A stretch of DNA of 64,000 bases. It comes from Arthrobacter sp. SLBN-100 (GTDB taxonomy: Bacteria; Actinomycetota; Actinomycetes; Actinomycetales; Micrococcaceae). The notes below the pieces were generated by a model. That model saw only the letters and a list, made by a program, of their open reading frames with translations. It was not told where the DNA came from and ran no database searches. This document shows, in pieces, positions 1,706 through 22,112 of this stretch. A program made the translations under genes and the position numbers. The stretch covers positions 434,001 to 498,000 of the forward strand of contig NZ_VFMY01000001.1 in assembly GCF_006715305.1 (NCBI RefSeq). Reading direction: 5' to 3'. Position 1 is the stretch's first letter; each line of letters starts with the position of its first letter.

Positions 1706-1719
1706 GGGACCAAAGCCTC
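1706..1719. promoter_or_regulatory. DosR-like box upstream of ppsA
   Basis: GGGACCAAAGCCTC matches the mycobacterial DosR core GGGACTWWAGTCCC at 11 of 14 positions. It ends 35 bp before the ppsA start codon, a normal place for an activator site. It is the most degenerate right half of the set found in this island, so it is a candidate only. Confidence 0.4.
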
Positions 1720-1754
1720 TGCTGCCGTTGCCCCGGAACCGCGAGGATCGATCC

Positions 1755-4157
1755 ATGGATGCAAGAACGATGATGACTGACGTTCACGTGCGGTGGTTCG
1801 ACGAGGTGGGGATGGAGGATGTTCCCGCTGTGGGCGGCAAGAATGCATCGCTGGGCGAGCTTACCCGTTCCCTGCTTTCCGCCGGCGTGCGCGTGCCCGA
1901 AGGCTTCGCCACCACGGCCAGCGCGTACCGGGCCTTCATTGCCGAGAACGGACTCGAACCCGGCATCAGGGCCGCCATCGACGGATACCGTGAGGGTCAC
2001 CTCGGCCTGCGTAACGCCGGTGAGAAGATCCGGGAGCTCATTCTCGAAGGTGAGTTCCCGCCGGACATCGCCGCCGGTATCCGCGAACATTACCGGGCGC
2101 TGTCGGCACGCACCGGGCAGGAGCGGGTTTCCGTTGCCGTCCGCAGCAGCGCCACCGCCGAGGACCTTCCGGACGCGAGCTTTGCCGGACAACAGGAGAC
2201 TTTCCTCAACGTGGCCGGAGAGCGGGGACTGATGGACGCCTGCAGGCGTTGTTACGCCTCGTTGTTCACCGACCGCGCCATCAGTTACCGGGAAATCAAG
2301 GGATTCGACCACCTGCAGGTTGCCCTGTCCGTCGGCGTACAGAGGATGGTGCGCTCGGATATCGGCGCCTCCGGGGTCATGTTCTCCATCGACACGGAAT
2401 CAGGTTTCCCCAGGAGCGTGCTGATCAGCGCCGCCTGGGGGCTCGGGGAGACCGTGGTCCAAGGCAGCATCAACCCCGATAAGTACCAGGTGTTCAAGCC
2501 CCTGCTCTCATCCAATGGCTTTGAACCCATCATCGAAAAGACCCTCGGGTCCAAGGAACGCAAAATGGTCTACAACCAGGGCGGCCACGCGCGGACCCGG
2601 ACCATCACTACAACCGACCAGGAGCGCCGTTCCTTCGTTCTGGCGGACGCTGACATCCTGGCCCTCGCCCGTTGGGCAGTGGCCGTGGAGAACCACTACG
2701 GCCGGCCCATGGACATGGAATGGGCTAAGGACGGGTCAACCGGCGAGCTCTTCCTGGTTCAGGCGAGGCCTGAGACCGTTCAGGCGCAGCGCAGCAGCTC
2801 CGCCTTCCGCGTGTACCACCTCCAGGAGACAGGCAAGGTTCTGGCATCCGGCGCCGCCATTGGTGAATCGATTGCCCAGGGGACCGCGTGTGTCGTCCGG
2901 GACGCACAGGACATCGACGATTTCCGGGACGGGGCCATCCTTGTCACCCGGATGACCGATCCGGACTGGGTACCCATCATGAAGCGGGCAGCCGGGATCG
3001 TCACGGACCACGGCGGTCCGACAAGCCACGCCGCGATCGTCAGCAGGGAACTCGGGGTGCCTGCCGTGGTGGGAACCGGCAACGCGACCTCCGTGATTGG
3101 GGACGGGACGGCGATCACGCTTTCATGCGCTGGCGGCGAAGAAGGCAACGTCTACGAGGGGACGTTGGGGTTCGACGTCGAAGAAGTGGACATCGGTGCG
3201 CTCCCGGCCACGCGGACTGCGGTGATGGTCAATATAGCCAGCCCGGCGGCGGCGTTCCGCTGGTGGCGCCTCCCGGCGGCCGGGGTGGGGCTGGCGCGGA
3301 TGGAATTCATCATCAGCAACCTCATCCGCATCCACCCGATGGCCCTGGTCCGTCCGGATCTGGTGAAGGACCCCGGCGAAGCTGACCTGATCCGGGAACT
3401 CACCTATGGGTACGTGGACCTGGAGGAATACTTTGTCGAGGTCCTCGCCAGGGGAATCGGGAAGATCGCCGCGCCGTACCATCCGCACCCGGTCATCGTG
3501 CGCTTGAGCGACTTCAAGAGCAACGAGTACGCCCACCTGATCGGGGGCCGCTCCTTCGAGGTGCCGGAGGAGAATCCGATGCTGGGGTTCCGCGGAGCCT
3601 CCCGCTACTACCACGAACGATACCGGGACGGGTTTGCCCTGGAGTGCCGTGCCGTGAAACGGGTGCGTGACCTGCTTGGTTTCTCAAATCTCATTGTCAT
3701 GGTTCCGTTTTGCCGGACGCCGCACGAGGCGGACCAGGTCATCAGCGTCATGGCGGACAACGGCCTGGTCCGCGGGGAGGCAGGACTGCAGATCTATGTC
3801 ATGTGCGAAATTCCCTCCAACGTCATCCTTGCCTCCGAGTTTGCGCAGCGCTTCGACGGGTTCTCCATCGGTTCCAATGACCTGACCCAGCTTGTGCTGG
3901 GCGTGGACAGGGATTCGGAGCTGCTGGGCGGCCTTTTTGACGAGCGGGACGAGGCGGTCACGACGATGATCGGCCAGGTTATCGAAAAGGCCCATGCCGC
4001 CGGCGTGAAAATTGGCATCTGTGGCCAAGGGCCCAGCAACCACGCAGACTTTGCGGAGTTCCTGGTGCGGCGAGGCATCGACTCCATTTCCCTCAACCCG
4101 GATACCTTCCTCAGGACTGTTCCGATCATCGCCGCTGCCGAGAATCTCCGCCGGTGA
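1755..4157 (+). CDS. ppsA: Phosphoenolpyruvate synthase
   Basis: An 800-residue PEP synthase (pyruvate + ATP to PEP + AMP + Pi), the usual length for the family. The N-terminal ATP-grasp nucleotide-binding domain opens with VGGKNASLGEL. The central swivelling domain carries the phosphohistidine in GGPTSHAAIV (His425), and the PEP/pyruvate-binding TIM barrel has SNLIRIHPMAL, GSNDLTQLVLGVDRD and the catalytic Cys of ICGQGPSNH (Cys756). ATG 1755 is chosen because GAGG lies 8 nt upstream. An in-frame TTG at 1728 has no better support. The stop overlaps the pfkA start by 4 nt (GTGA), so the two are translationally coupled. Pyruvate phosphate dikinase is the alternative, but the C-terminal motifs fit PEP synthase better. 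Confidence 0.95.
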   Translation: MDARTMMTDVHVRWFDEVGMEDVPAVGGKNASLGELTRSLLSAGVRVPEGFATTASAYRAFIAENGLEPGIRAAIDGYREGHLGLRNAGEKIRELILEGEFPPDIAAGIREHYRALSARTGQERVSVAVRSSATAEDLPDASFAGQQETFLNVAGERGLMDACRRCYASLFTDRAISYREIKGFDHLQVALSVGVQRMVRSDIGASGVMFSIDTESGFPRSVLISAAWGLGETVVQGSINPDKYQVFKPLLSSNGFEPIIEKTLGSKERKMVYNQGGHARTRTITTTDQERRSFVLADADILALARWAVAVENHYGRPMDMEWAKDGSTGELFLVQARPETVQAQRSSSAFRVYHLQETGKVLASGAAIGESIAQGTACVVRDAQDIDDFRDGAILVTRMTDPDWVPIMKRAAGIVTDHGGPTSHAAIVSRELGVPAVVGTGNATSVIGDGTAITLSCAGGEEGNVYEGTLGFDVEEVDIGALPATRTAVMVNIASPAAAFRWWRLPAAGVGLARMEFIISNLIRIHPMALVRPDLVKDPGEADLIRELTYGYVDLEEYFVEVLARGIGKIAAPYHPHPVIVRLSDFKSNEYAHLIGGRSFEVPEENPMLGFRGASRYYHERYRDGFALECRAVKRVRDLLGFSNLIVMVPFCRTPHEADQVISVMADNGLVRGEAGLQIYVMCEIPSNVILASEFAQRFDGFSIGSNDLTQLVLGVDRDSELLGGLFDERDEAVTTMIGQVIEKAHAAGVKIGICGQGPSNHADFAEFLVRRGIDSISLNPDTFLRTVPIIAAAENLRR

Positions 4158-5776: not shown

Positions 5777-8212
5777 CTACCGGCGGAAAGGCCCGCCGGA
5801 TGAAGATGGATCCGGGGCGGGAAACCTCCGCGCATGCGCCCGTCTCAGCAGCTCCATCGCTAGCATGCCCCCAGCTGCCGCGAGCAACGAGGCCGCGGCC
5901 AGCGGGGGCGGGGGCCATTCGAGGAGGAGGAACTCCTGGAGGGCCGGGATGGTGAGCACCAGGCCCAGCGTCAGGCACATCGCAGCAATGATCCCCAGTC
6001 GCGCGAGGTTAAGGGGCCGGCTCACCGCCCCGAGCACAGTGAGGGCAACGAGGGACAGGGTGATGACCGACGCCGTCCGGCTGGCCTCGGCGCTGAATCC
6101 GCCGGCTGCGCGGGAGAAAAGCTCCACTGCAACCACTGCCAAGGTGATGATGATGCCAGCGGGGACCGCCATGGCAAGCGAGCGTTTCAGGAAGCCCGGG
6201 GTGTAGCGGCGCGAATTGCCCATCAGTGCCAGGAAGAAGGCCGGTACGCCGATGGTGATGCCGTCCGTAACCGAGAGCTGGCGCGGAAGGAACGGAAAGT
6301 TCCACATCAGCGCCCCAAATGTCACGGACAGCGCCAGTGCGTATGTTGTCTTACTCAGGAACAGCACCGAGACCCGTTCAATGTTGGCAATCACTTGGCG
6401 GCCTTCGGCGAGGACAGCCGGAAGCCTCTCAAACCGGCCGTCCAGCAGGACCAGCCGGGCCACGGCCTTGGTGGCGGGCGCAGCCGAATCCATCGCTATA
6501 CCGAGATCCGCTTCCTTCAGTGCCAAGGCATCGTTGACGCCGTCGCCTGTCATGGCGACGGTGTGGCCGCTTCTTTGCAGCGCGTGGACCATCTCTTTTT
6601 TCTGTTGCGGTGTGACGCGGCCGAATATGGAGTAGGCGTTGAGAATTTCAGCCAACTTGTCCGGGTCTGAGGGCAGGAGCCGGGCATCGTAGCCGCTACC
6701 CGCGTTAAGGCCCACCTCCCGTGCCACCGCAGCGACTGTCCGATGGTCGTCGCCGGAGAGGACCTTCAGTACGACACCCTGTTGGCGAAAGAAGGACAGA
6801 GTCCGGGCGGCGTCGGGGCGGACCTTTTCGCGGAAGGTCAGCAGCACCACGGCGTTGAGCATTCGGGGCAGTTCCTCCCGGCCTGCCGCGTCCTTGTTCA
6901 TCACCTGCCAGGCGTGGGCCAGGAGCAGTGTCCGCAGGCCCTTCCGGGATAGCTCGGCGGAAGCGGCTTTGACCGCTGCACCGGCGTCATCCGGCCCCAG
7001 CAACAGTTCCGGAGCGCCAAGAATCCAGGTGCCGGCCGCTGGATGAGGCTCCTCGAAGGCTGCCGCACTCCACTTCCTGGCCGATGAGAAGGGAACGACG
7101 ACGGCGGGATCCTGGCCGGCGAGGCCAGGGAAATTGCCTGCCAGGCACCTCGCGGTGGAGTTGGCATGGGGATCGTTGCCGAACCAGCCCAGGGCCTCCT
7201 CCCAACCTGCGGGCGAAGGCGCTGCGAGGGCGTGGACGGCGTCGAAGACCATCCGGCCCTCCGTCAAGGTGCCTGTTTTGTCGATGCAGAGAACATCCAC
7301 CCTCGCGAGTCCCTCGACCGCCGCCAACTCCTGTACCAGCACATTTTGGCGCGCCAGCCGTACCCCGCCGATGGCGAAGGCGACGCTTGACATCAGGAGA
7401 AGTCCCAGCGGAATCATGGCAATGATGCCACCGGTAGCCCCAACCAGTGCACCCCGCCAGGCGCCCGTGGCCAGGGCCTGGTTCCAGCCGCCTTGCGCCT
7501 GCATCTGCCCATTTACCACTATCGCCATCACCGGAAGGAGCGCCCAGGTGATGAACCGCAGAACGCGGCCTATCCCGTTCCGTATTTCGGAGTTGACCAA
7601 GGAAAACCGCTTGGCTTCGGCGGTCAGACGCCGTGCATACGAGTCCGGACCTACACGGGTTACCAGTACCGTCCCCTGGCCCCCCATGACAGTGGCCCCC
7701 GACAGCACTTCCGACCCCCGGACCTTGGCGACCGGTTCGGACTCTCCCGTCAGCAACGACTCGTCCAGTTCGAGGCCGTCGCCCTGCAGAACCACAGCGT
7801 CAGCAACCACCTGGTCACCCGCTTGGAGTACCACGATGTCGTCGCGCACCACGTCGGCCACGGCAATTTCTCGGACCAGGCCCTCGCGGAGGGCTCTGGC
7901 ACGGGGGGCGTTAAGGACCGCCAGCCTGTCCAGCAGTCTCTTTGCGCGGTATTCCTGGGCCACGCCGATGATGGCGTTGCTCAGCGCGGCGAAGCCGAAG
8001 AGTGCGTCCCGCCACTGCCCTAAAAAAAGGAGCAGGATGAAGCAGCCACCCACGATTGCGTTGAAGAGTGTGAAAACATTCGCGCGGATAATCAGCCACA
8101 GGCTCCTGGTCTGGTCATCCGGGGCTTCATTGGACAGCCCCGCGAGAGTGCGTTCCCGGACGTCAGCCGCTGACAGGCCGGTTCCTGCCGGTGAGCCAGC
8201 CCCGGAAAGCAT
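5777..8212 (-). CDS. Cation-transporting P-type ATPase, CtpE-like
   Basis: An 811-residue complete P-type ATPase. It has N-terminal membrane pairs, the actuator motif TGES, the phosphorylation motif CIDKTGTLT with Asp311, a short nucleotide-binding domain, the hinge TGDGVNDALALKEADLGIAM, and a C-terminal membrane block starting VSVLFLSKTTYALALS. The short N-domain and these motifs resemble mycobacterial CtpE, a calcium exporter/importer candidate, rather than heavy-metal pumps: there is no CPC-type motif in the membrane region and no N-terminal metal-binding domain. It is the last gene of an operon with the flavodoxin-like gene (3-nt gap) and the alcohol dehydrogenase, transcribed from the DosR-like box at 9611. 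Confidence 0.92.
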   Translation of the reverse strand: MLSGAGSPAGTGLSAADVRERTLAGLSNEAPDDQTRSLWLIIRANVFTLFNAIVGGCFILLLFLGQWRDALFGFAALSNAIIGVAQEYRAKRLLDRLAVLNAPRARALREGLVREIAVADVVRDDIVVLQAGDQVVADAVVLQGDGLELDESLLTGESEPVAKVRGSEVLSGATVMGGQGTVLVTRVGPDSYARRLTAEAKRFSLVNSEIRNGIGRVLRFITWALLPVMAIVVNGQMQAQGGWNQALATGAWRGALVGATGGIIAMIPLGLLLMSSVAFAIGGVRLARQNVLVQELAAVEGLARVDVLCIDKTGTLTEGRMVFDAVHALAAPSPAGWEEALGWFGNDPHANSTARCLAGNFPGLAGQDPAVVVPFSSARKWSAAAFEEPHPAAGTWILGAPELLLGPDDAGAAVKAASAELSRKGLRTLLLAHAWQVMNKDAAGREELPRMLNAVVLLTFREKVRPDAARTLSFFRQQGVVLKVLSGDDHRTVAAVAREVGLNAGSGYDARLLPSDPDKLAEILNAYSIFGRVTPQQKKEMVHALQRSGHTVAMTGDGVNDALALKEADLGIAMDSAAPATKAVARLVLLDGRFERLPAVLAEGRQVIANIERVSVLFLSKTTYALALSVTFGALMWNFPFLPRQLSVTDGITIGVPAFFLALMGNSRRYTPGFLKRSLAMAVPAGIIITLAVVAVELFSRAAGGFSAEASRTASVITLSLVALTVLGAVSRPLNLARLGIIAAMCLTLGLVLTIPALQEFLLLEWPPPPLAAASLLAAAGGMLAMELLRRAHARRFPAPDPSSSGGPFRR

Positions 8213-8215: not shown

Positions 8216-8485
8216 TTAGTCCGCAGGTTCCTGATGAGCCTTCATGAGGGTCCTGGCCCAGGCAGCCGCCTTTTCTGTTTCTCCCTGGCGCAGGGGCCCT
8301 TCGGTTCCGCTGACACAGAAGGGGACCGGGCTGGAAACAATGTGGGCACCGGCGTTTTTCAGCAGCTTCGTCGTCTTCTTCCCAGCGTCACCGTGAATGA
8401 AGAAGCGGACGCGGGTGTCAAAGGCGGCGGCCTTCACCCCCTTGAGTGCGCCATACGCCGAGTCATAGACGATGTGCGCTTTCAT
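8216..8485 (-). CDS. Flavodoxin-like protein with a large internal deletion
   Basis: Only 89 residues. The first dozen, MKAHIVYDSAYG, are a typical flavodoxin first strand and the start of the phosphate-binding loop. The sequence then jumps directly to LKGVKAAAFDTRVR, which in full-length actinobacterial flavodoxin-domain proteins of about 160 residues lies near residue 95. It continues with the normal C-terminal half (GAHIV, FCVSGTEGPLRQGE, AAAWA). The region that would hold most of the FMN site is absent, so flavin binding is doubtful. The frame is intact and coupled on both sides: its ATG overlaps the dehydrogenase stop by 4 nt and the ATPase follows after 3 nt. The deletion is inferred from knowledge of the family. 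Confidence 0.7.
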   Translation of the reverse strand: MKAHIVYDSAYGALKGVKAAAFDTRVRFFIHGDAGKKTTKLLKNAGAHIVSSPVPFCVSGTEGPLRQGETEKAAAWARTLMKAHQEPAD

Positions 8486-9537
8486 GCCGTAATGACCACC
8501 TTCAGTGCATTCGTTTCAGCAGCACGGGCAAAAGTATCGTAGGCGTCCATGAACTCGTCAAATTTGAAATGGTGGGTAGCGAACTTTTCCGCCGGAAGCT
8601 TTTTCTGCGCAACGAGCTTGAGCAGCATCGGTGTGGTGTTGGCGTTTACCAGACCCATGCTGATGTTGATGTTCTGAATCCAGAGATTCTCAAGGTGCAG
8701 TTCAACGGACTTGCCGTGGACACCGACGTTCGCGACGTTTCCGCCAGGACGAACAATCCCGGTGCACATCTCGAAGGTGGCAGGAATGCCGACAGCCTCG
8801 ATGGCAACGTCCACGCCCTGGCCGTCCGTCAGGGCCAGGACCTGCTCTTTCCAGTCGCCGCTGCCCGACAGGACAATGTCCGTGGCGCCGAACTCCCGCG
8901 ACTTTTCCAGACGGTTCGGGTCGAGGTCGACGGCGATGATGGCTGCTGCACCGTACAGCCCGGCGGTGGCGATTGCCGCCAGCCCGACAGGACCCGCCCC
9001 GACCACTGCTACAGTGTCGCCGGGCTTGACCCGCCCGTATTGGACCCCGATCTCGAACCCGGTCGGAAGAATGTCAGAGAGCATGACCGCCTGCTCATCA
9101 CTGACGTTGTCCGGCAGGAGGTGCAGGGAATTCTCCGCATAGGGGACCCGCACGAATTCGGCCTGCGTCCCATCGATCAGGTGACCGAAAACCCATCCGA
9201 TTCCCGAAGCTCCTTCATCACCCATGCAGTGCGAATACAGGCCTGTCTTGCAGTTGGCGCAATGGCCGCAGGACTTGATGCAGGAGATGATCACCCGATC
9301 ACCCGGCTTTAAGCCTGTTACAGATGATCCGACCTCAGTGATGGTGCCTACCCCTTCGTGGCCGAGGATGCGTCCTTCCGTAACGGCTGGCACATCTCCC
9401 TTGAGGATATGCAGATCGGTTCCGCAGATGGTGGTGGTGTCGACCCTGACGATGGCGTCCGCGGGGTTTTGAAGTGTGGGATCTGGTACGTCCGTCCAGG
9501 ATTTCCTGCCGGGGCCTCCGTAAACTACGGCCTTCAT
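8482..9537 (-). CDS. Zinc-dependent alcohol dehydrogenase (MDR family)
   Basis: A 351-residue medium-chain dehydrogenase. The catalytic-zinc cysteine is in TICGTDLHI and the zinc ligand pair in GHEGVG. The structural-zinc loop is CGHCANCKTGLYSHC, and the Rossmann motif is GAGPVG near residue 170. The acidic residue following IIAVDLDPNR suggests NAD rather than NADP. It probably reoxidises NADH by reducing an aldehyde, which fits fermentation or hypoxia, but the substrate is unknown. It is the first gene of the operon running to 5777, with the DosR-like box 74-87 bp upstream of its ATG. Confidence 0.92.
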   Translation of the reverse strand: MKAVVYGGPGRKSWTDVPDPTLQNPADAIVRVDTTTICGTDLHILKGDVPAVTEGRILGHEGVGTITEVGSSVTGLKPGDRVIISCIKSCGHCANCKTGLYSHCMGDEGASGIGWVFGHLIDGTQAEFVRVPYAENSLHLLPDNVSDEQAVMLSDILPTGFEIGVQYGRVKPGDTVAVVGAGPVGLAAIATAGLYGAAAIIAVDLDPNRLEKSREFGATDIVLSGSGDWKEQVLALTDGQGVDVAIEAVGIPATFEMCTGIVRPGGNVANVGVHGKSVELHLENLWIQNINISMGLVNANTTPMLLKLVAQKKLPAEKFATHHFKFDEFMDAYDTFARAAETNALKVVITA

Positions 9538-9610
9538 AACCGCTCCCTCCTTTGATGCTGTTCGGATACCGACGCACTTCCACCATGAGCGTGCGGCCGC
9601 TTCGCGGTAA

Positions 9611-9624
9611 GGGACGAAAGTCCC
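9611..9624. promoter_or_regulatory. Near-perfect DosR box upstream of the adh-flavodoxin-ATPase operon
   Basis: GGGACGAAAGTCCC matches the DosR core GGGACTWWAGTCCC at 13 of 14 positions, with perfect 5-bp arms GGGAC/GTCCC. It lies between a universal stress protein gene (ending at 9643) and the alcohol dehydrogenase start at 9537, so only the minus-strand operon is placed to use it. This is the strongest regulatory site in the window. Confidence 0.75.
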
Positions 9625-9642
9625 GGAAACTGATCGTTGGCC

Positions 9643-11480: not shown

Positions 11481-11515
11481 AAAAGTACCTTGCCCCCCAG
11501 CGGTTCTGCGGCCTA

Positions 11516-11529: not shown

Positions 11530-11552
11530 TCAAAGGAGCGATCCATCCCCGG

Positions 11553-12907: not shown

Positions 12908-12999
12908 GCTCTCGATGCTATGAAGTCAGCCAAGCCACCAACAGGGCACAAAGACCGTAGTGGAAAGCAGCCACCCCTAGTCCGGCCCTCCTGGCAAAG

Positions 13000-13068: not shown

Positions 13069-14787
13069 ATGAGCGAGCCAATGCATGCCTCCGGAACTGG
13101 TGACCGGCCGATCTTTGCCGGGGCCAGGATGAATGAGCTTCTCACTGGCTTTGTTGACCAGGCCGGTGAACTGGTGAATGCGCAGCAACGGATGCGCGGC
13201 CTCCTGGAAGCGGTCGTCGCCCTCGCGGAGGACCTAAGCCTGGAGGCCGTACTTCAAAGGGTGGTCAACTCCGCGTGCACTCTCCTCGGGGCAGGGTTTG
13301 GAGCGCTGGGAGTCATCAGTGAAGAGCATGATGCTTTGAGCCACTTCATCACCGTTGGCATCGATGACGCAACGGCGCGGAAGATTGGTCCCCTGCCCAC
13401 CGGGCATGGCGTTTTGGGTTTGTTGATCCGTGATCCGAAGCCGCTGAGGCTGCATGACCTCAGCCGGCACCCGGAAGCGTATGGATTTCCGAAAAACCAT
13501 CCGCCCATGACGTCGTTCCTGGGCGTGCCGATCCGGGTGCGTGACTCTGTGTTCGGCAATCTCTATCTGACGCAGAAGGAAGGCGGTGGAGACTTTACCG
13601 ACGAGGATGAAGACTTGGCGCAGGCACTGGCCGCGGCGGCCGGCGTCGCTATCGAAAACGCCAGGCTTTACGACGACTCCCGCCGAAGAACGAGGTGGCT
13701 GGAAGCTTCGATGGAAGTAACCAGAAGGATGATGGACGGGGACACGCAGGAGGGCGAGGAAGGGGCCCCGGACATGATTGCCGGACGGGCGCTCCGGGAA
13801 TCCGCTTCGGAGCTGGCCCTGCTCCTTGTCCAGGAGCATGCGTCCGAGCTATTTCACGTCGCGGGGGCCGCCGGGGAAAGGTCCTCCGATTGGGCGGGAC
13901 GCTTTCTGGCCCTGACTTGCCCGGAGATCCGGGCGGTTATTGACACAGGCAAAGCGGCGGTGATTGAAGACGCTGCGACGATCTTGGGGCAGGATGCGGC
14001 TGCAATGCCAGGGCGCCTCCTGGCCATGGATCTGAGCACCCACGGCACCCATCACGGGCTCCTTGTCCTGGTCCGGAAGCGAACGGAAGGCGCATACCGG
14101 CCGGCAGATGTTGAGATGGGAACAGTTTTCTGTTCCCATGTCGCCATGGGGCTGGAACTTGCCCGGGCACGCCGGATGCGCGAACAGCTTGCCGTGTTTA
14201 CGGACCGGGACCGGATCGCCCGGGATCTCCATGACCTCGTGATCCAGCGGCTGTTCGCTACAGGGCTCAGTATCCAGAGTCTTCAACGTTTCAGCTCCAG
14301 GGAGTCGCAGGCCGGGACGATTGCGAAAGTCACGGCTGAACTCGACGAAACTATCCGTGAACTGCGCAACACGATCTATTCGTTAAGCAGATCCTCGGGC
14401 GAGGTGGAACTGCTCAGCAGCCGGATTCTGCAAACGGTAAGGTCTGCCACGCAATCCCTGCCGTTCGTACCCCACCTGACGCTGACCGGGCCGATCGACG
14501 CCATCCGGGACGAGTCGACGGTGTCAAATGTGCTGGCAGTTCTCACGGAAGGTTTGAGCAACGCGGTCCGGCATTCGGGGGCAGCGTCGATCAGCGTGTC
14601 GATTGCCGTTAGCGAAGGAAGGCTTGCCGTTCGCATCAAAGACGACGGCCGGGGCTTCTCCGCTCCGGGGACAGGCAACGGCCTGTCGAACATGTTGCAC
14701 AGGGCAAATGCCCTCGGCGGCAACTTCGAGATGCACAGCCCGCCGGGGGCGGGAACCGAAGTGGAGTGGACCGCCCCGGTCTTCTGA
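13069..14787 (+). CDS. devS: DevS/DosT-type two-GAF sensor histidine kinase
   Basis: A 572-residue soluble kinase, close to the 578 residues of mycobacterial DevS. The first GAF domain (about 50-200) keeps GVLGLLIRDPKPLRL and GFPKNHPPM. His144 in the latter aligns, by family knowledge, with the haem-ligating His of DevS/DosT. A second GAF follows (about 215-365). The HisKA_3 dimerisation helix DRIARDLHDLVIQRLF carries phospho-acceptor His388, and the HATPase_c domain has EGLSNAVRHS and DDGRGF. The likely role is sensing O2, NO, CO or redox state and phosphorylating DevR. It is convergent with devR, 21 bp apart. No membrane segment is seen. Confidence 0.92.
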   Translation: MSEPMHASGTGDRPIFAGARMNELLTGFVDQAGELVNAQQRMRGLLEAVVALAEDLSLEAVLQRVVNSACTLLGAGFGALGVISEEHDALSHFITVGIDDATARKIGPLPTGHGVLGLLIRDPKPLRLHDLSRHPEAYGFPKNHPPMTSFLGVPIRVRDSVFGNLYLTQKEGGGDFTDEDEDLAQALAAAAGVAIENARLYDDSRRRTRWLEASMEVTRRMMDGDTQEGEEGAPDMIAGRALRESASELALLLVQEHASELFHVAGAAGERSSDWAGRFLALTCPEIRAVIDTGKAAVIEDAATILGQDAAAMPGRLLAMDLSTHGTHHGLLVLVRKRTEGAYRPADVEMGTVFCSHVAMGLELARARRMREQLAVFTDRDRIARDLHDLVIQRLFATGLSIQSLQRFSSRESQAGTIAKVTAELDETIRELRNTIYSLSRSSGEVELLSSRILQTVRSATQSLPFVPHLTLTGPIDAIRDESTVSNVLAVLTEGLSNAVRHSGAASISVSIAVSEGRLAVRIKDDGRGFSAPGTGNGLSNMLHRANALGGNFEMHSPPGAGTEVEWTAPVF

Positions 14788-14808: not shown

Positions 14809-15495
14809 CTACTGCGCCTGTCCTGCGTTGTATGCGACATGAACGGCCGCCTGGGTCCGCCTCTCAAATCCCAGCTTTGCCAGCAGGGATGACACGTAGT
14901 TCTTCACCGTCTTTTCCGCGAGCTGCATGCGTTCCCCGATCTGGCGGTTCGTCAGCCCTTCCCCTACGAGTTCCAACACGCGCCGTTCCTGCGGCGTCAG
15001 CGACTCCAGCCTGGGATCCACTCTTTCGGGCTTCGCCAGTCCTTGGATAATCCGAGCCTTGAGGTCGGCGCTGAACAAGGACTCCCCGCGCGCTGCCCGG
15101 CGCAGCGCCCCAATCAGATCCGTGCCGCCGATCTCTTTCAGAACGTAGCCGGAGGCCCCGGCAATGACCGCGCCCCTGAGTGCCTGTTCGTCGTCATAGC
15201 TCGTCAGGATCACGCAGTTCAGGGTCCCATCGATGGAACGGACATCACGGCAGACTTCGATCCCGGTCCCGTCGGGCAACCGGGCATCCAGCACGGCAAC
15301 GTCGGGACGAAGGGCAGGAATGCGACGCACCGCTTCGGCAGCTGAGCCGGACATTCCGACGACGACGAATCCTTCGCTCTCCAACAGGTCCTGAAGCCCG
15401 CGCCGGACCAGCTCATGGTCATCGAGGATGAACACCCGGATGCCGGTGCCCGGCGCTGCAGCACTGCCCGCTGATGCTTCCGACTTCATTTTCAT
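14809..15495 (-). CDS. devR: DevR/DosR-type NarL-family response regulator
   Basis: A 228-residue regulator with a receiver domain (acidic pair DDHE near residue 25, phospho-acceptor Asp70 in VLDARLPDGTGIE, LTSY, Lys of GYVLKEI) and a C-terminal LuxR-type helix-turn-helix. The recognition region LAEKTVKNYVSSLLAKLG followed by ERRTQAAV is nearly the same as in mycobacterial DevR, so similar DNA boxes are expected, and similar boxes are found here. About 19 extra residues precede the receiver domain compared with mycobacterial DevR. Upstream lies the shared intergenic region with two DosR-like boxes. The partner kinase is convergent, not in an operon as in mycobacteria. Confidence 0.93.
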   Translation of the reverse strand: MKMKSEASAGSAAAPGTGIRVFILDDHELVRRGLQDLLESEGFVVVGMSGSAAEAVRRIPALRPDVAVLDARLPDGTGIEVCRDVRSIDGTLNCVILTSYDDEQALRGAVIAGASGYVLKEIGGTDLIGALRRAARGESLFSADLKARIIQGLAKPERVDPRLESLTPQERRVLELVGEGLTNRQIGERMQLAEKTVKNYVSSLLAKLGFERRTQAAVHVAYNAGQAQ

Positions 15496-15580
15496 TCCTT
15501 ATGGTTCGGGGCCTGTCCGAGGGGACGGCCGTGCAAATCCTCGTACCACTCATCCTTGAGGAACCGTATCGGGTGCACAA

Positions 15581-15594
15581 GGGCCCTTAGTCAC
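15581..15594. promoter_or_regulatory. DosR-like box between devR and a usp gene
   Basis: GGGCCCTTAGTCAC matches the DosR core at 11 of 14 positions. It lies 86 bp upstream of the devR start (minus strand) and 120 bp upstream of the proposed usp start at 15714 (plus strand), so it could serve either or both and allow devR autoregulation. Confidence 0.5.
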
Positions 15595-15634
15595 CGCTCA
15601 TGGGAAGAGCCGACCTGAAGGCCGATGACGATCG

Positions 15635-15648
15635 GGGACTAATGGCAC
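15635..15648. promoter_or_regulatory. Second DosR-like box upstream of a usp gene
   Basis: GGGACTAATGGCAC matches the DosR core at 11 of 14 positions. It lies 66-79 bp before GTG 15714, and 54 bp from the box at 15581, which is about five helical turns. Confidence 0.5.
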
Positions 15649-15713
15649 TGGGCGCTGGCTCTCCACCGGGCACACTGAAGATATTCCGTGGTTCACTGGA
15701 GGGGAGCAAGGTT

Positions 15714-16565
15714 GTGTCTGGTCGGGAGGTGCTGGCAGGCGCGGACGGTTCAACCAGTGGCCAAAGGGCCCAGGAGTGGGCAGCGCAACGGGCGGTCGAC
15801 CTGGCACTCCGGCTGCATCTGGTAAGGGCAGTCCCGGAGCCCGGGTACTTCAGGGTTCCGTCCGAATATCGTCAAGCGGCCACGCAGGCCGAAGGTCTAC
15901 TGGACGCTGAAAGCCGCAGGATTGCCGCCCTTCACCCCGGGCTGGAGATCGTCACCAGCTGCCGGGCCGGTGAGACGGTGGCAGTGTTGCTCGTGCTGTC
16001 CCAAGCGGCAGAAGCCGTGGTTCTGGGCTCGGACCGCCGGCCGGACCGCAGGGGAGAAGGATTCGGATCCATAAGCTTTCAGGCAGCAGTCCTGTGCCGG
16101 AGTCCGGTGGTTGTCGTGCCGGATGTTGATCCGGCCGTACCAACGGCGGACAGCGTGGGCGTTCTGGTCGGCGTTGACGGCTCACAAGAATCCGAACTCG
16201 CGCTGAAGGCGGCCGGGGAGGAGGCCCTCCGAACGGGAGCCGTCTTGACGGTCCTGCACGCTGTGGCCGGGGGAGATCTTTCGGGAAGGGCATTTCCGGG
16301 TGATGCTGGACGCACCCATCAGGCCGACCCGGAAGAACTCCTGTCCGCTGCTGTCCGTAGGGTCACGACCTCCTGCCCCGGGCTGGAGGTGCACCAGGCG
16401 CTCAAAACGGGCGTCCTCCCTGCCGACGCACTGATACGGGCAGCCATGCATGCCAAGTTGCTGGTGATCGGCTGCAGGGGCCGGGGCGGTCTCCGGAAAC
16501 CAGTGGGCTCCATCGCCGAAAAGGTGCTGCTGGAGTTGCCCTGCCCCACCATGATCGCCCGTTGA
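15714..16565 (+). CDS. Universal stress protein, two UspA domains
   Basis: A 283-residue tandem UspA protein. Domain one starts VLAGADGSTSG and domain two VGVLVGVDGSQES, and the second ATP-binding motif GCRGRGGLRKPVGSIAEK is present. GTG 15714 is chosen: GGAGGGGAG lies just upstream and the protein then begins like other Usp proteins. The in-frame ATG at 15600 would add 38 residues without family support and would place a DosR-like box inside the coding sequence. It is divergent from devR. Confidence 0.85.
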   Translation: MSGREVLAGADGSTSGQRAQEWAAQRAVDLALRLHLVRAVPEPGYFRVPSEYRQAATQAEGLLDAESRRIAALHPGLEIVTSCRAGETVAVLLVLSQAAEAVVLGSDRRPDRRGEGFGSISFQAAVLCRSPVVVVPDVDPAVPTADSVGVLVGVDGSQESELALKAAGEEALRTGAVLTVLHAVAGGDLSGRAFPGDAGRTHQADPEELLSAAVRRVTTSCPGLEVHQALKTGVLPADALIRAAMHAKLLVIGCRGRGGLRKPVGSIAEKVLLELPCPTMIAR

Positions 16566-16591
16566 GCTCCTCGGCAGCCGTGGACCCTGGA

Positions 16592-16605
16592 GTGACTTTT
16601 GGCCC
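16592..16605. promoter_or_regulatory. DosR-like box upstream of the DUF4389 gene
   Basis: GTGACTTTTGGCCC (minus-strand reading GGGCCAAAAGTCAC) matches the DosR core at 11 of 14 positions. It ends 60 bp before ATG 16666. Confidence 0.5.
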
Positions 16606-16665
16606 TACTCCATCCCTCTTCGAGAACCCACCCTTAAGAAGCACTGGCACCTAAGGAGGACATCC

Positions 16666-18228
16666 ATGAAGGCCCGTTCCATAGTCATGCTCATACTTGG
16701 TATCTTGCTGTCGATGGCAGGTGCAGGACTCCTGTTCTGCGGCATCGGTGCATCCTGGCTGAACCTCGTCCAGAACGACGACGGGTACCTCACCTCACCT
16801 CAGGAACGCTTCGCCGTCGACACCCATGCGATTGTGTCTGCCAGTACGGAAGGCATGCGCGACGACGTGGGGCCCGCCCCATTGCCCTTCGACGTGGGCA
16901 GCCTCCGTATTAGCGGGGAATCAGCAAACCCAGCCAAGGAAGTCTTCATCGGGATTGCGGCGAGGGCCGACGTCGAGCGCTATCTGGGCGGATCAAACTA
17001 TTCGGAGCTGCGGGAGGTGGATTTCAGGCCCTTCCGGGCCGAATATCGGGAAGTGGCAGGTACGGAGCCCCTCTCACCGCCGGCGGAACAGGAATTCTGG
17101 GTAGCTTCTGCCGCCGGCCCTGGCCAACAGGAGGTCAACTGGAATATCGAGTCCGGGAACTGGTCGGTGGTGATCATGAACACCGACGCCTCCCCTGGGC
17201 TTGCGGTGGACCTGCAGGCCGGTTTCAGGTCAGAGCTGTTCGGGCCGATCGCGGCCGGGCTTCTGGCAGCGGGTGTGATTCTGCTGGTCATTGGCGTCCC
17301 GTTGCTGGTTTTTGGTGCCCGCGGGTTGGGGCGGCGGACCGGCCCTCCCACCGGGTCCGGAACTCCGGCGTTGGCGTCTGCTGCCTATCCCGGGCAGAGA
17401 AGCGGCTCGGCGCCGGTAGTGGTTCAGGGGCAGGCTCAAGGCTCAGTTACGGGACGGGATTCAACTCCGGGGTCTTTGGAGGCTGTCGAGGCGGCGCCGT
17501 ACCCCGCACGGCTCAGTGGTGAAATCGACCCGTTGCTGTCCAGGTGGATGTGGCTGGTCAAATGGTTCCTCGCCATCCCGCACCTGATTGTCCTCTTCTT
17601 CCTGTGGTTCGCGTTCGCAGTGGTCACTATCGTGGCCGGGTTCGCGATTCTGTTCACCGGCCGCTATCCCCATTCGCTCTTCGTCTTCAACGTGGGCGTC
17701 CTGCGCTGGAACTGGCGCGTGGCCTTCTATGCGTACGCCGCGGTGGGAACGGACAGGTATCCGCCCTTCACGCTGTCCCGGACGGATTATCCCGCCGATT
17801 TTGAAGTGGATTATCCGGAACGGCTTTCCCGCGGGCTTGTCCTGGTCAAGTGGTGGCTGCTGTCGATTCCGCACTTGCTGGTTGTCGCCGCCTTCACAAG
17901 TGCCAGCGCCATCCGCTGGAGCAACCCCGAAACCCCCGCCGTCAGATACGAAACGGGCTCGGGGATCTCCCTGCTGGGGTTGCTGGTATTGATCGCCGCC
18001 GTAATTCTCCTGTTCAGCGGACGCTACCAGCGGCCGCTTTTTGGGCTGATCCTGGGCATCAATCGCTGGATTTACCGGGTCATCACGTACGTGGCCCTGC
18101 TGCGGGATGAGTACCCGCCGTTCCGCCTGGACCAGGGCTCCAGCGACAACCACCGGCAGCAGATCAGTGTGGATGACGGGCCGGGCCGGCCTCCTGCCCC
18201 GCCCCGGCCCACTGCAGGGCTCGGTTGA
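16666..18228 (+). CDS. DUF4389 membrane protein with two DUF4389 repeats
   Basis: A 520-residue membrane protein preceded by a perfect AAGGAGG at 16653-16659. It has an N-terminal helix (residues about 5-30), a periplasmic/extracellular stretch, a second helix (about 187-210), a Pro/Gly/Ser linker, and then two copies of the DUF4389 unit. Each unit has the pattern YPxxL, a WxLxIPH membrane pair, an FSGRY or FTGRYP turn, R-W-x-YRV-x-YxxL and YPPF. Function is unknown in the family, and proteins of this type often sit with stress genes in actinobacteria. A DosR-like box lies upstream. Confidence 0.85.
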   Translation: MKARSIVMLILGILLSMAGAGLLFCGIGASWLNLVQNDDGYLTSPQERFAVDTHAIVSASTEGMRDDVGPAPLPFDVGSLRISGESANPAKEVFIGIAARADVERYLGGSNYSELREVDFRPFRAEYREVAGTEPLSPPAEQEFWVASAAGPGQQEVNWNIESGNWSVVIMNTDASPGLAVDLQAGFRSELFGPIAAGLLAAGVILLVIGVPLLVFGARGLGRRTGPPTGSGTPALASAAYPGQRSGSAPVVVQGQAQGSVTGRDSTPGSLEAVEAAPYPARLSGEIDPLLSRWMWLVKWFLAIPHLIVLFFLWFAFAVVTIVAGFAILFTGRYPHSLFVFNVGVLRWNWRVAFYAYAAVGTDRYPPFTLSRTDYPADFEVDYPERLSRGLVLVKWWLLSIPHLLVVAAFTSASAIRWSNPETPAVRYETGSGISLLGLLVLIAAVILLFSGRYQRPLFGLILGINRWIYRVITYVALLRDEYPPFRLDQGSSDNHRQQISVDDGPGRPPAPPRPTAGLG

Positions 18229-18301: not shown

Positions 18302-20203
18302 ATGGACCAAGCAGCTCTGAGGGCGGTAATTGGGCGGTTTCCGCTGGTGGCGGCCACGGTAGCAGCGGGAATTGTCGTCGCGGTGTTGCTGGGGCTGGGG
18401 GAGGACCTGGCGGCCCGATGGACTGCAAGCGCCTATGCCATGGTGGTTGCCGTTGTCCGGTCCGGCTCGATGTTCAAGGCGCTGCTGCGGGGCCGGTGGG
18501 GGATTGACCTCCTGGCCGTGACAGCCATCGCCGCGACGGTGGTCGTCGGGGAGTATGTGGCCGCTCTGATCATTGTGCTGATGCTGGCCGGGGGAGAAGC
18601 CCTGGAAGACATTGCCGAAGGACGGGCTACCCGCGAGCTCAGGTCGCTGCTGGAGCGAACCCCGCAAACTGCCCACCGGGAACGGAACGGCGGTCCGCCG
18701 GAGGACATCCCGGCCGACGCCGTCTGCCCCGGCGACGTCCTCCTGATCAAACCCTCAGAAGTGGTCCCCGTTGACGGGATGCTGCTGACCGCTGCCGGCA
18801 GCTTCGATGAATCCACATTGACAGGCGAGAGCCTGCCGGTGGAACACGTGAAGGGCGATGCGTTGCTCAGCGGATCCGTCAATGGTGACAACGCTGTACA
18901 CATGAAGGCCGCATCGACGGCCAAGGACTCGCAGTACAGCCAGATCGTTGCCTTGGTCCAGGAGGCGGCAGCCAGCCGGGCGCCGGTGGTCCGGCTCGCT
19001 GACAGGTACGCCGTTCCCTTCACGCTCCTCGCCTTCGCCTTGGCGATGGTGGGCTGGTATATGAGCCAGGACCCGGCGCGGTTCGCCCAGGTTCTTGTCG
19101 TGGCTACCCCTTGTCCGCTACTCATCGCAGCCCCGGTGGCGTTCCTCGCCGGCACAAGCCGGGCAGCCCGCTCGGGAATCATCATTAAGAACGGGGGCAC
19201 CCTCGAACAGCTGGCCCGGGTGCGGACGGCCGTTTTCGACAAGACGGGCACGCTCACCCACGGCCGGCCCACGCTGGAGGAGACCAGGATCTCAACGGAA
19301 GCCGCAGGGCTAATCACCGCGGACCGGCTGCTACAGCTTGCCGCGTCGGCCGAGCAGTACTCCTCCCATGTCCTTGCTTCATCCGTCATTGACGCGGCCC
19401 GCCAACATGGTCTGGACCTGCTGCCGGGCAGCAACGCGACTGAACACGCCACGCAGGGTGTCACCGCAACATGCGGCCATCACGCGGTGGTGGTCGGCAA
19501 ACCCGGCTTCGTGCGTTCCGTCACCACCGGTTTTGAGGAAGCCGATACGGCAGGGGGACAACTGGCGGTCTACGTCGGTGTTGACGGACACTTCGTTGGC
19601 GCGCTGGTCATGCGCGACCCGCTGCGGAACAATGCGGTGCGCACACTGGATGCCCTGCGCAGGCTGGGCGTCCAGGAAACCCTCCTCCTGACGGGTGATG
19701 CCCAAGGGACGGCCGAACAAATTGCATCCCAGGCCGGGATCGCCCGGGTCAAGTCAGGATGCCTGCCCGGTGACAAAGTCTCCATCGTCGCAGGACTGCG
19801 GAAACGCCCGGTCATGATGGTGGGCGACGGAGTCAACGACGCTCCTGTCCTGGCGGCAGCGGATGTCGGCGTCGCCATGGGCGCAAAAGGATCAACCGCG
19901 GCGAGCGAGTCAGCCGACGTGGTCATCCTGCTCGACGATCTATCCAAGGCAGCGTTGGCGGTCGACATCGGCCAACGAACCATCAGGATAGCGCTGGCAA
20001 GCATCTGGACCGGGATCCTGCTGAGCATCGGCCTAATGATTGCGGCAGTATTCGGCTACATTCCTGCTGTGGCCGGTGCGCTCCTTCAGGAGCTGGTGGA
20101 CTTGGCCACCATCCTGAACGCGCTCCGTGCCCTGCGAAGCGGCGGCCGGGGCAGCACGACGGCGATGGGCGGCAGCCCAGTCATCGCCGCCGGCCTGAGG
20201 TGA
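18302..20203 (+). CDS. P1B-type heavy-metal-transporting ATPase (TPC type)
   Basis: A 633-residue P1B ATPase with no N-terminal metal-binding domain. It has TGES in the actuator, the intramembrane motif TPCP at residues 269-272 in place of CPC, phosphorylation motif FDKTGTLTHGRP with Asp313, the GDGVNDAPVLAAADVGVAMG hinge and a final membrane pair. In P1B pumps the HP and CPx motifs mark metal transport, and TPC is a minority variant, so copper, zinc or cobalt cannot be chosen. The gene ends 38 bp from the convergent flavoprotein gene. No DosR-like box was found directly upstream. A GACCTAAGGTC palindrome overlaps the leader. Confidence 0.9.
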   Translation: MDQAALRAVIGRFPLVAATVAAGIVVAVLLGLGEDLAARWTASAYAMVVAVVRSGSMFKALLRGRWGIDLLAVTAIAATVVVGEYVAALIIVLMLAGGEALEDIAEGRATRELRSLLERTPQTAHRERNGGPPEDIPADAVCPGDVLLIKPSEVVPVDGMLLTAAGSFDESTLTGESLPVEHVKGDALLSGSVNGDNAVHMKAASTAKDSQYSQIVALVQEAAASRAPVVRLADRYAVPFTLLAFALAMVGWYMSQDPARFAQVLVVATPCPLLIAAPVAFLAGTSRAARSGIIIKNGGTLEQLARVRTAVFDKTGTLTHGRPTLEETRISTEAAGLITADRLLQLAASAEQYSSHVLASSVIDAARQHGLDLLPGSNATEHATQGVTATCGHHAVVVGKPGFVRSVTTGFEEADTAGGQLAVYVGVDGHFVGALVMRDPLRNNAVRTLDALRRLGVQETLLLTGDAQGTAEQIASQAGIARVKSGCLPGDKVSIVAGLRKRPVMMVGDGVNDAPVLAAADVGVAMGAKGSTAASESADVVILLDDLSKAALAVDIGQRTIRIALASIWTGILLSIGLMIAAVFGYIPAVAGALLQELVDLATILNALRALRSGGRGSTTAMGGSPVIAAGLR

Positions 20204-20241: not shown

Positions 20242-20700
20242 TCACTGCCGTTGGGTGTCCAGGGGCGGCCACCAGCGGGCCGCCGGGTTGATGACAAAAC
20301 GCCGGCCGCTGACCTCCGTCGGCGTTACCCGCACCAGGTGGTCTTTGCTTCCCGCTTCCCAGGGCGAAAGCCCTGCGTCTGCTGCTTCCTGGAAATCCGC
20401 TTCGGTGTCCACAACGGCGGCAGTTCCCTTGACGACGACGCTCCACGCAATGGTGCCGTAGGTATTCAGTCCATCGGCTTCCAATGCGACCGGACTTCCC
20501 CCCAGCACGGCATCCAGTTTGGTTCCCCGGCCCGTCCTGAAGACCACCGTGCCGTAGTCGGGGACGTAATTCACCGGGAAGATTTCAGGCTCCCCGCCTG
20601 TGGTGACTGCTATCCGGCCTACTGAAGCCGAACGGAGGTATTTCCAGCAGTCATGAGTGCTGAGGACTTCCGTGTCCGGTCCTGAAGAGTTGTTTTGCAT
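20242..20700 (-). CDS. Pyridoxamine 5'-phosphate oxidase-like flavoprotein (FMN split barrel)
   Basis: A 152-residue full-length paralogue of the 5283 protein, with CWKYLRSASVGRIAV, EIFPVNYV, FRTGRGTKL, WSVVVKG, KDHLVRVTP and SGRRF. It probably binds FMN or F420 and reduces an unknown substrate. It lies 10 nt downstream of a tandem universal stress protein gene and forms an operon with two usp genes. Confidence 0.85.
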   Translation of the reverse strand: MQNNSSGPDTEVLSTHDCWKYLRSASVGRIAVTTGGEPEIFPVNYVPDYGTVVFRTGRGTKLDAVLGGSPVALEADGLNTYGTIAWSVVVKGTAAVVDTEADFQEAADAGLSPWEAGSKDHLVRVTPTEVSGRRFVINPAARWWPPLDTQRQ

Positions 20701-20710
20701 TCCTGTGCGC

Positions 20711-21577
20711 CTACTTCCCGTGCTTCATACGCCGGATAGGGGTTATCACCGTGGGACAGGGCAAACGCGTCAGCACCGCGTGTGCGGTGGAGCCGAGAAG
20801 CAGCCGTTTGAAGCCGCCCCGGCCACGGCTTCCCACCACGAGCATTTGTGCGCCGGCCGCGGCCTGGACGAGTGCCGCTGCGGGTTCCTTCTCGGTGTCC
20901 AGGACCTGGTGCACCACAAGGTCCGGGTAGTCCTCTCGAAGTCCGGAGATGGTTTCTGCGAGCACGATCCGCTCCTCGTCCTCCATCAACTGGGGGAGGT
21001 TTTCGGTCAGGAGGCCGCTGTCAGTGAACCGGTCGGGCGGGCTGAAAGCATAAAGGACTGTCAGTTCCTGTCCCTCGCGGTCTGCCTCAGCAGCACCGAA
21101 GGCAACGGCCTGGGTGGCTTCTTCCGAGCCGTCAACCCCTACAACCACACCTCGGCCGCCTTCTGTCCCAGTGTCTCCGATCACGGCCACCGGACATTTC
21201 GCCGCGGCAGCGACCTGCAGGGCGCGATCGGTCAGTGATCCACCCAGATGGGGGGCGCCGGACCCCACCACAAGCATCGACACCTTGCCGGAATACCTGC
21301 GCAACTCGCCCGCGATGCTTCCCTCGAGGACCTTGGTAGTGATGTCAATCGGAACGGTGCCGCGAACCCGTTTGGCCGCCACATCCAGCAGTTCGCTGCC
21401 CTTCTCCAGCAGAATCCCGGTCCACGAGACAGGCTCCGCCACCCAGCGGTCGTCAACAACATGAAGGATGACCAGCGGCACACCGGCACGTGCGGCCCGG
21501 GCTGCAGCCCACCTCACAGCCGCCTGGCTTTGGGCAGACTCATTGGTTGCAACGGCGATCGGCTTAGAATTTCTCAC
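20711..21577 (-). CDS. Universal stress protein, two UspA domains
   Basis: A 288-residue tandem UspA protein. The first domain begins IAVATNESAQS and the second VVVGVDGSEEA, and the ATP motif GSRGRGGFKRLLLGSTA closes domain two. GTG 21577 is chosen because the purine run AAGGAAAGGAAG lies 7 nt upstream, while the start at 21634 would extend far into the preceding gene. It overlaps the upstream usp gene by 14 nt and is followed by the flavoprotein gene after 10 nt. Confidence 0.88.
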   Translation of the reverse strand: MRNSKPIAVATNESAQSQAAVRWAAARAARAGVPLVILHVVDDRWVAEPVSWTGILLEKGSELLDVAAKRVRGTVPIDITTKVLEGSIAGELRRYSGKVSMLVVGSGAPHLGGSLTDRALQVAAAAKCPVAVIGDTGTEGGRGVVVGVDGSEEATQAVAFGAAEADREGQELTVLYAFSPPDRFTDSGLLTENLPQLMEDEERIVLAETISGLREDYPDLVVHQVLDTEKEPAAALVQAAAGAQMLVVGSRGRGGFKRLLLGSTAHAVLTRLPCPTVITPIRRMKHGK

Positions 21578-22034
21578 TGCTGGTCTTCCTTTCCTTATTG
21601 GGGCTATGTACCACCAGGACGGGACAGTGCGCATGGGCTACGCAGGCGGAGCTGACGGACCCCAGGAGCATGCCGCCGAATCCACCATGACCGCGCCTGC
21701 CGACGATGAGCATGTCGGCATGCCGACTGGCGTCTATTAGCGACTCACGGGCATGGCCCCGGACCACCTGCGGTATGACATTCGGCGGAGTCTCCTGGCC
21801 GAAGGCCTGTCTCAAGGCGTCCGTGAGGACCATCATCACTCGTTCCTCGAAGCGGTCGATCCCCATCGCCACGTAGCCCGCATAGACTTGCGGATCCTCC
21901 CAGTAGGCGGTGGCCAGTACCTTGGCCCCAAGAGGGAGAGCCAGCCGCTGGGCCTGCCGGAGGGCTTCCACCGACGCCTCCGATCCGTCCACCCCCACCA
22001 CGAACCTGCCACCCTCTGACGCTGACTCCTCCAT
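21564..22034 (-). CDS. Universal stress protein, single UspA domain
   Basis: A 156-residue UspA protein with VVGVDGSEAS near the N-terminus and the ATP motif GRRGHGGFGGMLLGSVS, ending in CVAHAHCPVLVV like the protein at 11022. It is the first gene of a usp-usp-flavoprotein operon. A DosR-like box lies 65-78 bp upstream of its ATG. Confidence 0.9.
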   Translation of the reverse strand: MEESASEGGRFVVGVDGSEASVEALRQAQRLALPLGAKVLATAYWEDPQVYAGYVAMGIDRFEERVMMVLTDALRQAFGQETPPNVIPQVVRGHARESLIDASRHADMLIVGRRGHGGFGGMLLGSVSSACVAHAHCPVLVVHSPNKERKTSSEKF

Positions 22035-22098
22035 GGCCGCTTCCCTTCATCGCTCCGTTGCTGCTATCAGCCTGCGGGGTTCCACCGGGCGCCGATAG

Positions 22099-22112
22099 GG
22101 CCAAAAGCCACC
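22099..22112. promoter_or_regulatory. DosR-like box upstream of the usp-usp-flavoprotein operon
   Basis: GGGCCAAAAGCCAC matches the DosR core at 10 of 14 positions and differs from the minus-strand reading of the 16592 site at one base. It lies between the Usp start at 22034 and the end of the next gene. Confidence 0.5.

Follow-up and report, generated by a model that had tools for sequence, protein, structure and literature searches.

Do the short palindromes that surround a devR- and devS-like gene pair in Arthrobacter sp. SLBN-100 serve as operators of that regulator, or does GC-rich DNA yield such sequences wherever one looks? The question concerns a 64,000-nucleotide stretch of contig NZ_VFMY01000001.1 (positions 434,001–498,000; hereafter the window), in which an initial annotation had listed seven 14-mer sites, attributed them to a DosR-like regulon island outside mycobacteria with a box motif of its own, GGGMC-N4-GTCMC, and proposed a genome scan. 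From sequence analysis we consider the sites very probably to be operators for DevR (DosR/OsdR) in an oxygen-responsive dormancy or stress regulon, because the box is enriched, the functional residues of DevR and its kinases are kept, and boxes precede devR in loci held out from motif building. Gene identities, the conserved catalytic, haem and DNA-contact residues, and the enrichment and conservation of the box were read directly from the DNA and its translations.

A box motif built from relatives

Scanned across the whole genome, the consensus GGGMCN4GTCMC showed no enrichment (80 strand hits against 161 for its reversed control); it occurred at 70 distinct places, six in the island defined below (P = 1 × 10−4) and 64 outside it. 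Because this consensus proves little alone, we built a motif without any window sequence, from the devR loci of relatives. A devR protein search provided 80 loci of named genomes, the best 80 among the matches listed. The 21 closest (L001–L021) formed the training set: 20 from Micrococcaceae (Pseudarthrobacter, Arthrobacter, Paenarthrobacter and Sinomonas among others), plus a single Cryobacterium locus, with 206 non-coding stretches totalling 39.6 kb including flanks. De novo expectation-maximisation on this DNA returned mostly GC repeats, and one high-information GGGNC palindrome family, GGGcCctagGgCCC. A 20-column matrix seeded on the palindrome core, with symmetry imposed during the fit, held 13.1 bits per site with about 78 expected sites, and its strongest columns read A-GGG-MC-N-WW-N-GK-CCC-T.

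Taken from left to right along the window, the seven sites scored 10.3, 16.9, 16.6, 13.7, 14.0, 17.3 and 13.6 bits on this matrix. Six of the positions given for them were exact (that at 16592 as the reverse complement), and the seventh site starts at 22098, not 22099. Six sites, at 13.6–17.3 bits, stood as instances of a real motif; the first, at 1706, lay near background, where 17 sites of at least 10 bits occurred per 200 kb, and is likely a chance match. The idea of a separate motif was not borne out, as GTCMC is ordinary variation of a symmetric box, the relatives' matrix covers the sites, and the mycobacterial (DosR) consensus itself scored 19.7 bits.

Enrichment in one genomic island

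We compared an island of 56.5 kb (C1:401701–458200, made up of L081:6701–20000, L082 and window 1–24200), whose borders were drawn after the hits were known, with the adjoining 46.5 kb and with a background of ten evenly spaced stretches totalling 200 kb, so that the 4.94-Mb genome was sampled by the matrix. Sites of at least 13 bits numbered 15 in the island, none in the adjoining 46.5 kb and three in the background. Column-permuted palindromic matrices (n = 500) gave an island mean of 1.08 and a maximum of six, and none reached 15. The enrichment over background was also significant across the contiguous 103 kb of L081, L082 and the window (15 sites, P = 2 × 10−5) and within the window alone (seven sites, P = 0.003). 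Thirteen of the 15 island sites were non-coding, although non-coding DNA makes up only 10% of the island. Gene calls without Pfam support were heuristic (GC content by codon position) and wrong in places, for example at the universal stress protein (Usp) genes at 9643–11056, which were corrected by hand.

Two further scans were made. The palindromic pattern with at most one mismatch occurred at 31 places genome-wide, eight of them within 49 kb, or 1% of the genome (P = 6 × 10−10), while remaining rarer genome-wide than its reversed control (31 v 85). A matrix from 26 published S. coelicolor sites separated the regions moderately at 10 bits or more, with eight sites in the island, two in the adjoining 46.5 kb and five in the 200 kb of background. 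GGGNC-N4-GNCCC palindromes were enriched upstream of target operons, as in DosR/OsdR regulons.

GC-rich DNA might still produce GGGNC/GNCCC palindromes everywhere, the initial annotation having chosen those near attractive genes, and the 64 off-island matches to a consensus rarer than its reversed control, together with the background-level score at 1706, fit that account; the density of sites found with the independent matrix, the failure of all 500 permuted matrices to match it, the non-coding location and the boxed held-out devR loci described below do not. As an account of the whole site set, chance is refuted by the independent-matrix enrichment and the held-out loci, and we give it next to no credence.

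Box conservation in relatives

Of the 59 held-out loci, 30 had a box of at least 12 bits in the 330 bp before the devR match, where permuted matrices (n = 200) gave a mean of 0.52 and a maximum of four; these are not 59 independent cases, because several come from close relatives (e.g. Micromonospora). The devR autoregulatory box was present in 17 of the 21 training loci, and SLBN-100 itself has two such sites, at 15578 and 15632. Fifty-three of the held-out loci were at least 10 kb long; together they had 43 hits in 108 kb of non-coding DNA against 31 in 927 kb of coding DNA.

In a per-gene test, best-hit homologues were scored for a box of at least 11 bits in the 250 bp upstream (permuted expectations below 0.4), counted for devR from a start extrapolated from the longer N-terminus of the SLBN-100 protein. 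Within the training loci, boxes preceded 10/10 homologues of the Usp gene at L081:11421, 4/5 of the Usp gene at 11022–11480, 3/3 of that at 21564–22034, 4/8 of the alcohol dehydrogenase (ADH), 11/20 of devS and 17/20 of devR. Two relatives had PPDK within the fetched flanks, and in neither was it preceded by a box. Of 295 genomes in the family, SLBN-100 included, 109 encode a DevR match at E ≤ 1 × 10−50, and these belong to 14 of 32 genera.

We also asked how box and regulator co-occur, by comparing two groups of 20 genomes, one with a DevR match at 1 × 10−50 and one without, with 30 Usp loci taken per group. An intergenic box was present at 8/30 Usp loci in DevR genomes and at 0/30 in DevR-less genomes (P = 0.005).

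Several results weigh against assigning the boxes to DevR. No 12-bit box lay within 330 bp upstream of devR at 29 of the 59 held-out loci, and by the 11-bit, 250-bp measure only 19 of 59 devR genes outside the training set were boxed (devS, 7 of 41). Training homologues of the beta-CASP gene (0/2) and of the Usp gene at L081:7017 (0/1) had no box, despite strong boxes in SLBN-100. Published S. coelicolor sites scored a median of 8.6 bits on the relatives' matrix, and the S. coelicolor matrix at 6 bits separated poorly (35 sites in the 56.5 kb, 14 in the 46.5 kb and 71 in the 200 kb). Once the six loci next to devR were removed, boxed Usp loci fell to 3/24 v 0/30 (P = 0.08). Pattern density was higher in 11 DevR genomes than in 11 DevR-less ones (5.9 v 3.2 per Mb, P = 0.002), but so was that of the reversed control (18.0 v 11.8), and the ratio of pattern to control did not differ (0.33 v 0.27, P = 0.34); raw pattern counts were therefore confounded and were rejected as a measure, since the difference was gone after correction by the control. 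Co-occurrence of box and regulator was only partly shown.

These results leave some room for the view that the palindromes are true operators of another regulator, NarL/LuxR-type or unrelated, with DevR a mere passenger in the island. Many NarL-family dimers bind short palindromes, the genome encodes 24 further, mostly partial, DevR matches (the best 37% identical), and co-occurrence outside devR neighbourhoods lacked significance; a different regulator would nevertheless sit poorly with the box upstream of devR itself in half of the held-out loci, with the score of the DosR consensus on the matrix, and with a DNA-contact helix that is the same in DevR and DosR. We regard this explanation as improbable, and continue with DevR as the likely regulator.

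The regulator and its two candidate sensor kinases

The devR (dosR/osdR) product (14809..15495, minus strand) has NarL-type architecture (Pfam Response_reg and GerE) and matched the M. tuberculosis DevR structure 3c3w at E = 1.6 × 10−62, with the next chain, VraR, far behind at E = 4 × 10−32. The receiver aspartate (D54 of DosR) is conserved in the 3c3w alignment. The recognition helix AEKTVKNY is identical to that of DosR, and the core DNA-contact residues, named as K179, K182 and N183 in PMC5999986, are all kept. The closest devR relatives, among the matches listed, were from Pseudarthrobacter and Arthrobacter.

Two kinases could serve this regulator. The devS/dosT-like gene (13069..14787, plus strand) encodes a haem-GAF histidine kinase with matches to DevS GAF-A structures at E-values down to 1 × 10−51, and a second DevS/DosT-like haem-GAF kinase lies 12.6 kb beyond the left edge of the window (L082:4739–6439; C1:419739–421439). 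Both match the GAF-A structures of DevS and of DosT and have a HisKA_3 and HATPase_c kinase core (Pfam). The haem-ligand His149 and distal Tyr171, so named in PMC4082495, were aligned in both (HPP and NLYLT), and haem binding by both is predicted. At the position of DosS Glu87 both have Gly, as in DosT, where the residue is Gly85 (PMC4082495). GAF-A domains, 64 in all, were recovered from 64 of the 80 loci fetched; of these, 63 keep the His, 64 the Tyr, and 61 of the 63 covered the Gly.

Taking haem and oxygen chemistry, phosphotransfer, DNA binding, activation and hypoxia induction from M. tuberculosis and S. coelicolor, we suggest the following sequence of events. The two kinases would hold O2 on haem and stay silent in air; as oxygen falls they would autophosphorylate and pass the phosphate to DevR at its conserved receiver aspartate. 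Phosphorylated DevR dimers would then bind the 20-bp palindrome, centred about 40–150 bp upstream of target start codons, and would activate the Usp, alcohol dehydrogenase, pyridoxamine 5'-phosphate oxidase-like (PNPOx), ATPase, hemerythrin and Hsp20 genes, as well as devR and devS themselves in a positive feedback.

The main signal for a DevR regulon of this kind might not be oxygen limitation but redox state, NO, CO or growth phase, a reading otherwise compatible with ours. DevS-type sensors also bind NO and CO (PMC4082495), and OsdR controls stress and development genes in S. coelicolor (PMC5069765). The Gly at the Glu87 position, common to nearly all covered relatives, argues instead for a gas-type sensor, though NO or CO would still be compatible with it. 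We think a principal signal other than oxygen unlikely, but it carries appreciably more weight than the alternatives above, and oxygen limitation is our preferred signal.

Comparison with known DevR systems

The island looks like the Micrococcaceae counterpart of the Streptomyces OsdR island. Urem et al. (2016; PMC5069765) demonstrated binding of DevR targets by OsdR in S. coelicolor, where eight predicted sites around osdR cover 20 of the 22 genes from SCO0198 to SCO0219; genes for Usp, Zn-dehydrogenase, PPDK, PNPOx and hemerythrin proteins are among the entries of their Table 1. Like the OsdR/OsdK regulon (SCO0167–SCO0219), SLBN-100 combines a DevR orthologue with a DevS/DosT-like kinase, has boxes before Usp, Zn-dehydrogenase, PPDK (a weak site here) and PNPOx-like genes and before the regulator, includes hemerythrin among the genes, and groups the targets around the regulator. 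The boxes share an A..T pair just outside GGG..CCC (AGGGCCGATCGGCCCT), although the core of the Streptomyces box is GC-richer. The Streptomyces island, as given in PMC5069765, also contains nitrate reductase genes, whereas none was present among the island genes of SLBN-100 that were run through Pfam. The claim of a DosR-like island outside mycobacteria stands as to its host, a non-mycobacterium with its nearest devR genes in Pseudarthrobacter and Arthrobacter, but not as a novelty, because the OsdR/OsdK system had already been published.

Gene order differs more. In S. coelicolor osdR and osdK form an operon (PMC5069765), whereas in SLBN-100 devR (minus strand) and devS (plus strand) are convergent genes whose stop codons lie 21 bp apart (window 14787–14809), rather than co-transcribed. 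The convergent, adjacent order recurred in 19 of the 21 training loci and in 17 of the 59 others. A regulator-kinase operon is an arrangement and no requirement for the regulon, and with the OsdR/OsdK precedent we regard the SLBN-100 system as one more case of a known type, in which the gene arrangement varies.

As in the M. tuberculosis DosR/DevR-DosS-DosT system (PMC5069765), the core GGGAC-N4-GTCCC has an A/T centre, two haem-GAF kinases would act on one regulator, and Usp and HspX-type genes are among the predicted targets. The two differ in flanking preference, A..T in SLBN-100 against TTS..SAA in mycobacteria; the SLBN-100 box is intermediate, with the A/T centre of mycobacteria and the outer A..T and GGCC tendency of Streptomyces. 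The DosR targets of M. tuberculosis, cation ATPase, PNPOx and HAD-GH65 fusion genes among them, are scattered over several parts of the genome; in SLBN-100, by contrast, a single 56-kb island contains 15 strong sites.

Tentatively, Micrococcaceae may have rebuilt the dormancy switch, uncoupling sensor and regulator into convergent genes 21 bp apart, each with its own DevR box, placing a second haem kinase, of DosT type, within the same island and collecting nearly the whole regulon in a single block of about 55 kb; the tail-to-tail order might allow mutual restraint between the devS and devR transcripts. We put this forward as a possibility, itself rather doubtful. The results extend the DevR-type regulon to common soil Micrococcaceae, supply a box matrix for that family, and offer a soil bacterium as a model in which a single block may contain most of a dormancy-type regulon. 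Set beside S. coelicolor and mycobacteria, they suggest that the box, the haem kinase, the Usp genes and self-regulation are old parts, and that gene order, flanking bases and nitrate genes are variable ones. A literature search by title, with subscription journals mostly outside its coverage, returned no paper on a DevR/DosR regulon in Arthrobacter or Micrococcus; broader queries led back to PMC5069765 and to genome papers on Rhodococcus and mycobacteria.

Boxes and genes in the window

Regulator and targets stand together, as the initial annotation had noted, with devR, devS and the boxed genes in one island. If same-strand gaps of up to 73 bp are taken as operons, all 16 called genes between 5777 and 22034 lie behind a box of at least 13 bits. 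Dormancy-type genes (Usp, adh, DUF4389 and devR) follow the sites as had been described, except for the PEP synthase (PPDK) gene, whose weak upstream site (1703..1722, 10.3 bits) had no counterpart in the two relatives noted above.

The predicted box TAAGGGACGAAAGTCCCGGA (9608..9627, 16.9 bits) lies upstream of a minus-strand zinc-type alcohol dehydrogenase (8482..9537; Pfam ADH_N/ADH_zinc_N), followed in the putative ADH operon by a small open reading frame (ORF) without Pfam match (8216..8485, minus) and, after a 3-bp gap on the same strand, by a P-type ATPase (E1-E2, Pfam) as the third gene (5777..8212, minus). The predicted box CTAGGGCCGAAGGTCACTCA (11513..11532, 16.6 bits) is upstream of three overlapping minus-strand Usp genes (all PF00582), at 11022..11480 (the first of the run), 10514..11056 and, with two domains, 9643..10527. 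To the right of this box come an alcohol dehydrogenase family gene (11553..12566, minus; Pfam) and a PNPOx gene (12590..12907, minus; PF12900), and between PNPOx and devS lies the predicted box ACAGGGCACAAAGACCGTAG (12941..12960, 14.5 bits), which stands before PNPOx with this second dehydrogenase on one side and before devS on the other. It is a good site that the initial annotation had missed; the leftward extension of the island beyond the window was out of that annotation's view.

Two predicted boxes occupy the region between devR and a divergent two-domain Usp gene (15714..16565, plus, start inferred; PF00582): CAAGGGCCCTTAGTCACCGC (15578..15597, 13.7 bits) and, 54 bp away, TCGGGGACTAATGGCACTGG (15632..15651, 14.0 bits). 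The second (15632/15635) falls inside the longest possible Usp ORF. A ribosome-binding-site-like GGAGGGGAGC before a GTG near 15714, with the sequence GGAGGGGAGCAAGGTTGTG near 15700, suggests that the gene starts at about 15714, which would make the second box intergenic after all.

The predicted box GGAGTGACTTTTGGCCCTAC (16589..16608, 17.3 bits) is upstream of a DUF4389 gene (16666..18228, plus; PF14333), downstream of which is a P-type ATPase (18302..20203, plus; Pfam). The predicted box ATAGGGCCAAAAGCCACCTA (22095..22114, 13.6 bits) precedes a minus-strand run of a Usp gene (21564..22034; PF00582), a two-domain Usp gene (20711..21634; PF00582) and a PNPOx-like gene (20242..20700; PF12900). 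At the right island edge, a possible weaker box (24087..24106, 11.5 bits) lies 42 bp upstream of a GyrI-like gene (23584–24054), which had no homologue in the relatives' fetched flanks. To the right of the island, window 24448–33346 encodes PEP mutase-like, cytochrome P450, polysaccharide deacetylase/glycosyltransferase fusion, SMP-30-like, aldo-keto reductase and BBE-type FAD oxidase proteins, and contained no box of at least 13 bits.

The island beyond the window and outlying sites

The island runs about 32 kb to the left of the window, where there are eight further sites of at least 13 bits and genes for Usp proteins, hemerythrin, Hsp20, the second haem-GAF kinase, a beta-CASP nuclease, a WS/DGAT fragment, a calcium-type ATPase and a HAD/GH65 fusion. 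Thirteen of the 24 Usp domain matches of the genome are within the island. The Hsp20 gene (L082:4069–4689) adjoins the second kinase; a box of 16.6 bits falls just within the gene as called, whose start was therefore probably placed too early. The HAD and glycosyl hydrolase 65 fusion (L082:14901–18044), a type of gene also present in the mycobacterial DosR regulon, follows a gene with a 12.4-bit box ahead of it (L082:13962). Two island proteins had no Pfam match, one of 283 aa (L081:12001–12852), divergent from a boxed Usp gene, and one of 248 aa (L081:14484–15230).

A large off-island regulon was considered and rejected: the off-island sites inspected were few, and most did not precede stress genes. 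In 20 further stretches chosen for pattern matches or Usp genes, six of ten sites of at least 13 bits were inside called genes; the other four lay before a TetR gene, between two Pfam-less genes, at the start of one Pfam-less gene and upstream of a PqqD gene. Six Usp regions were sampled from those outside the island; five had no 12-bit site upstream of the Usp gene, and the sixth (C1:2275k) had one of 12.5 bits. Three strong off-island boxes are possibly outlying regulon members: one of 16.8 bits between two genes without Pfam match (L105:3400; C1:377900), one of 15.6 bits before the TetR gene (L103:3249; C1:2012749), and one of 17.6 bits inside or beside ORFs of no assigned function (L094:13654; C1:1813654).

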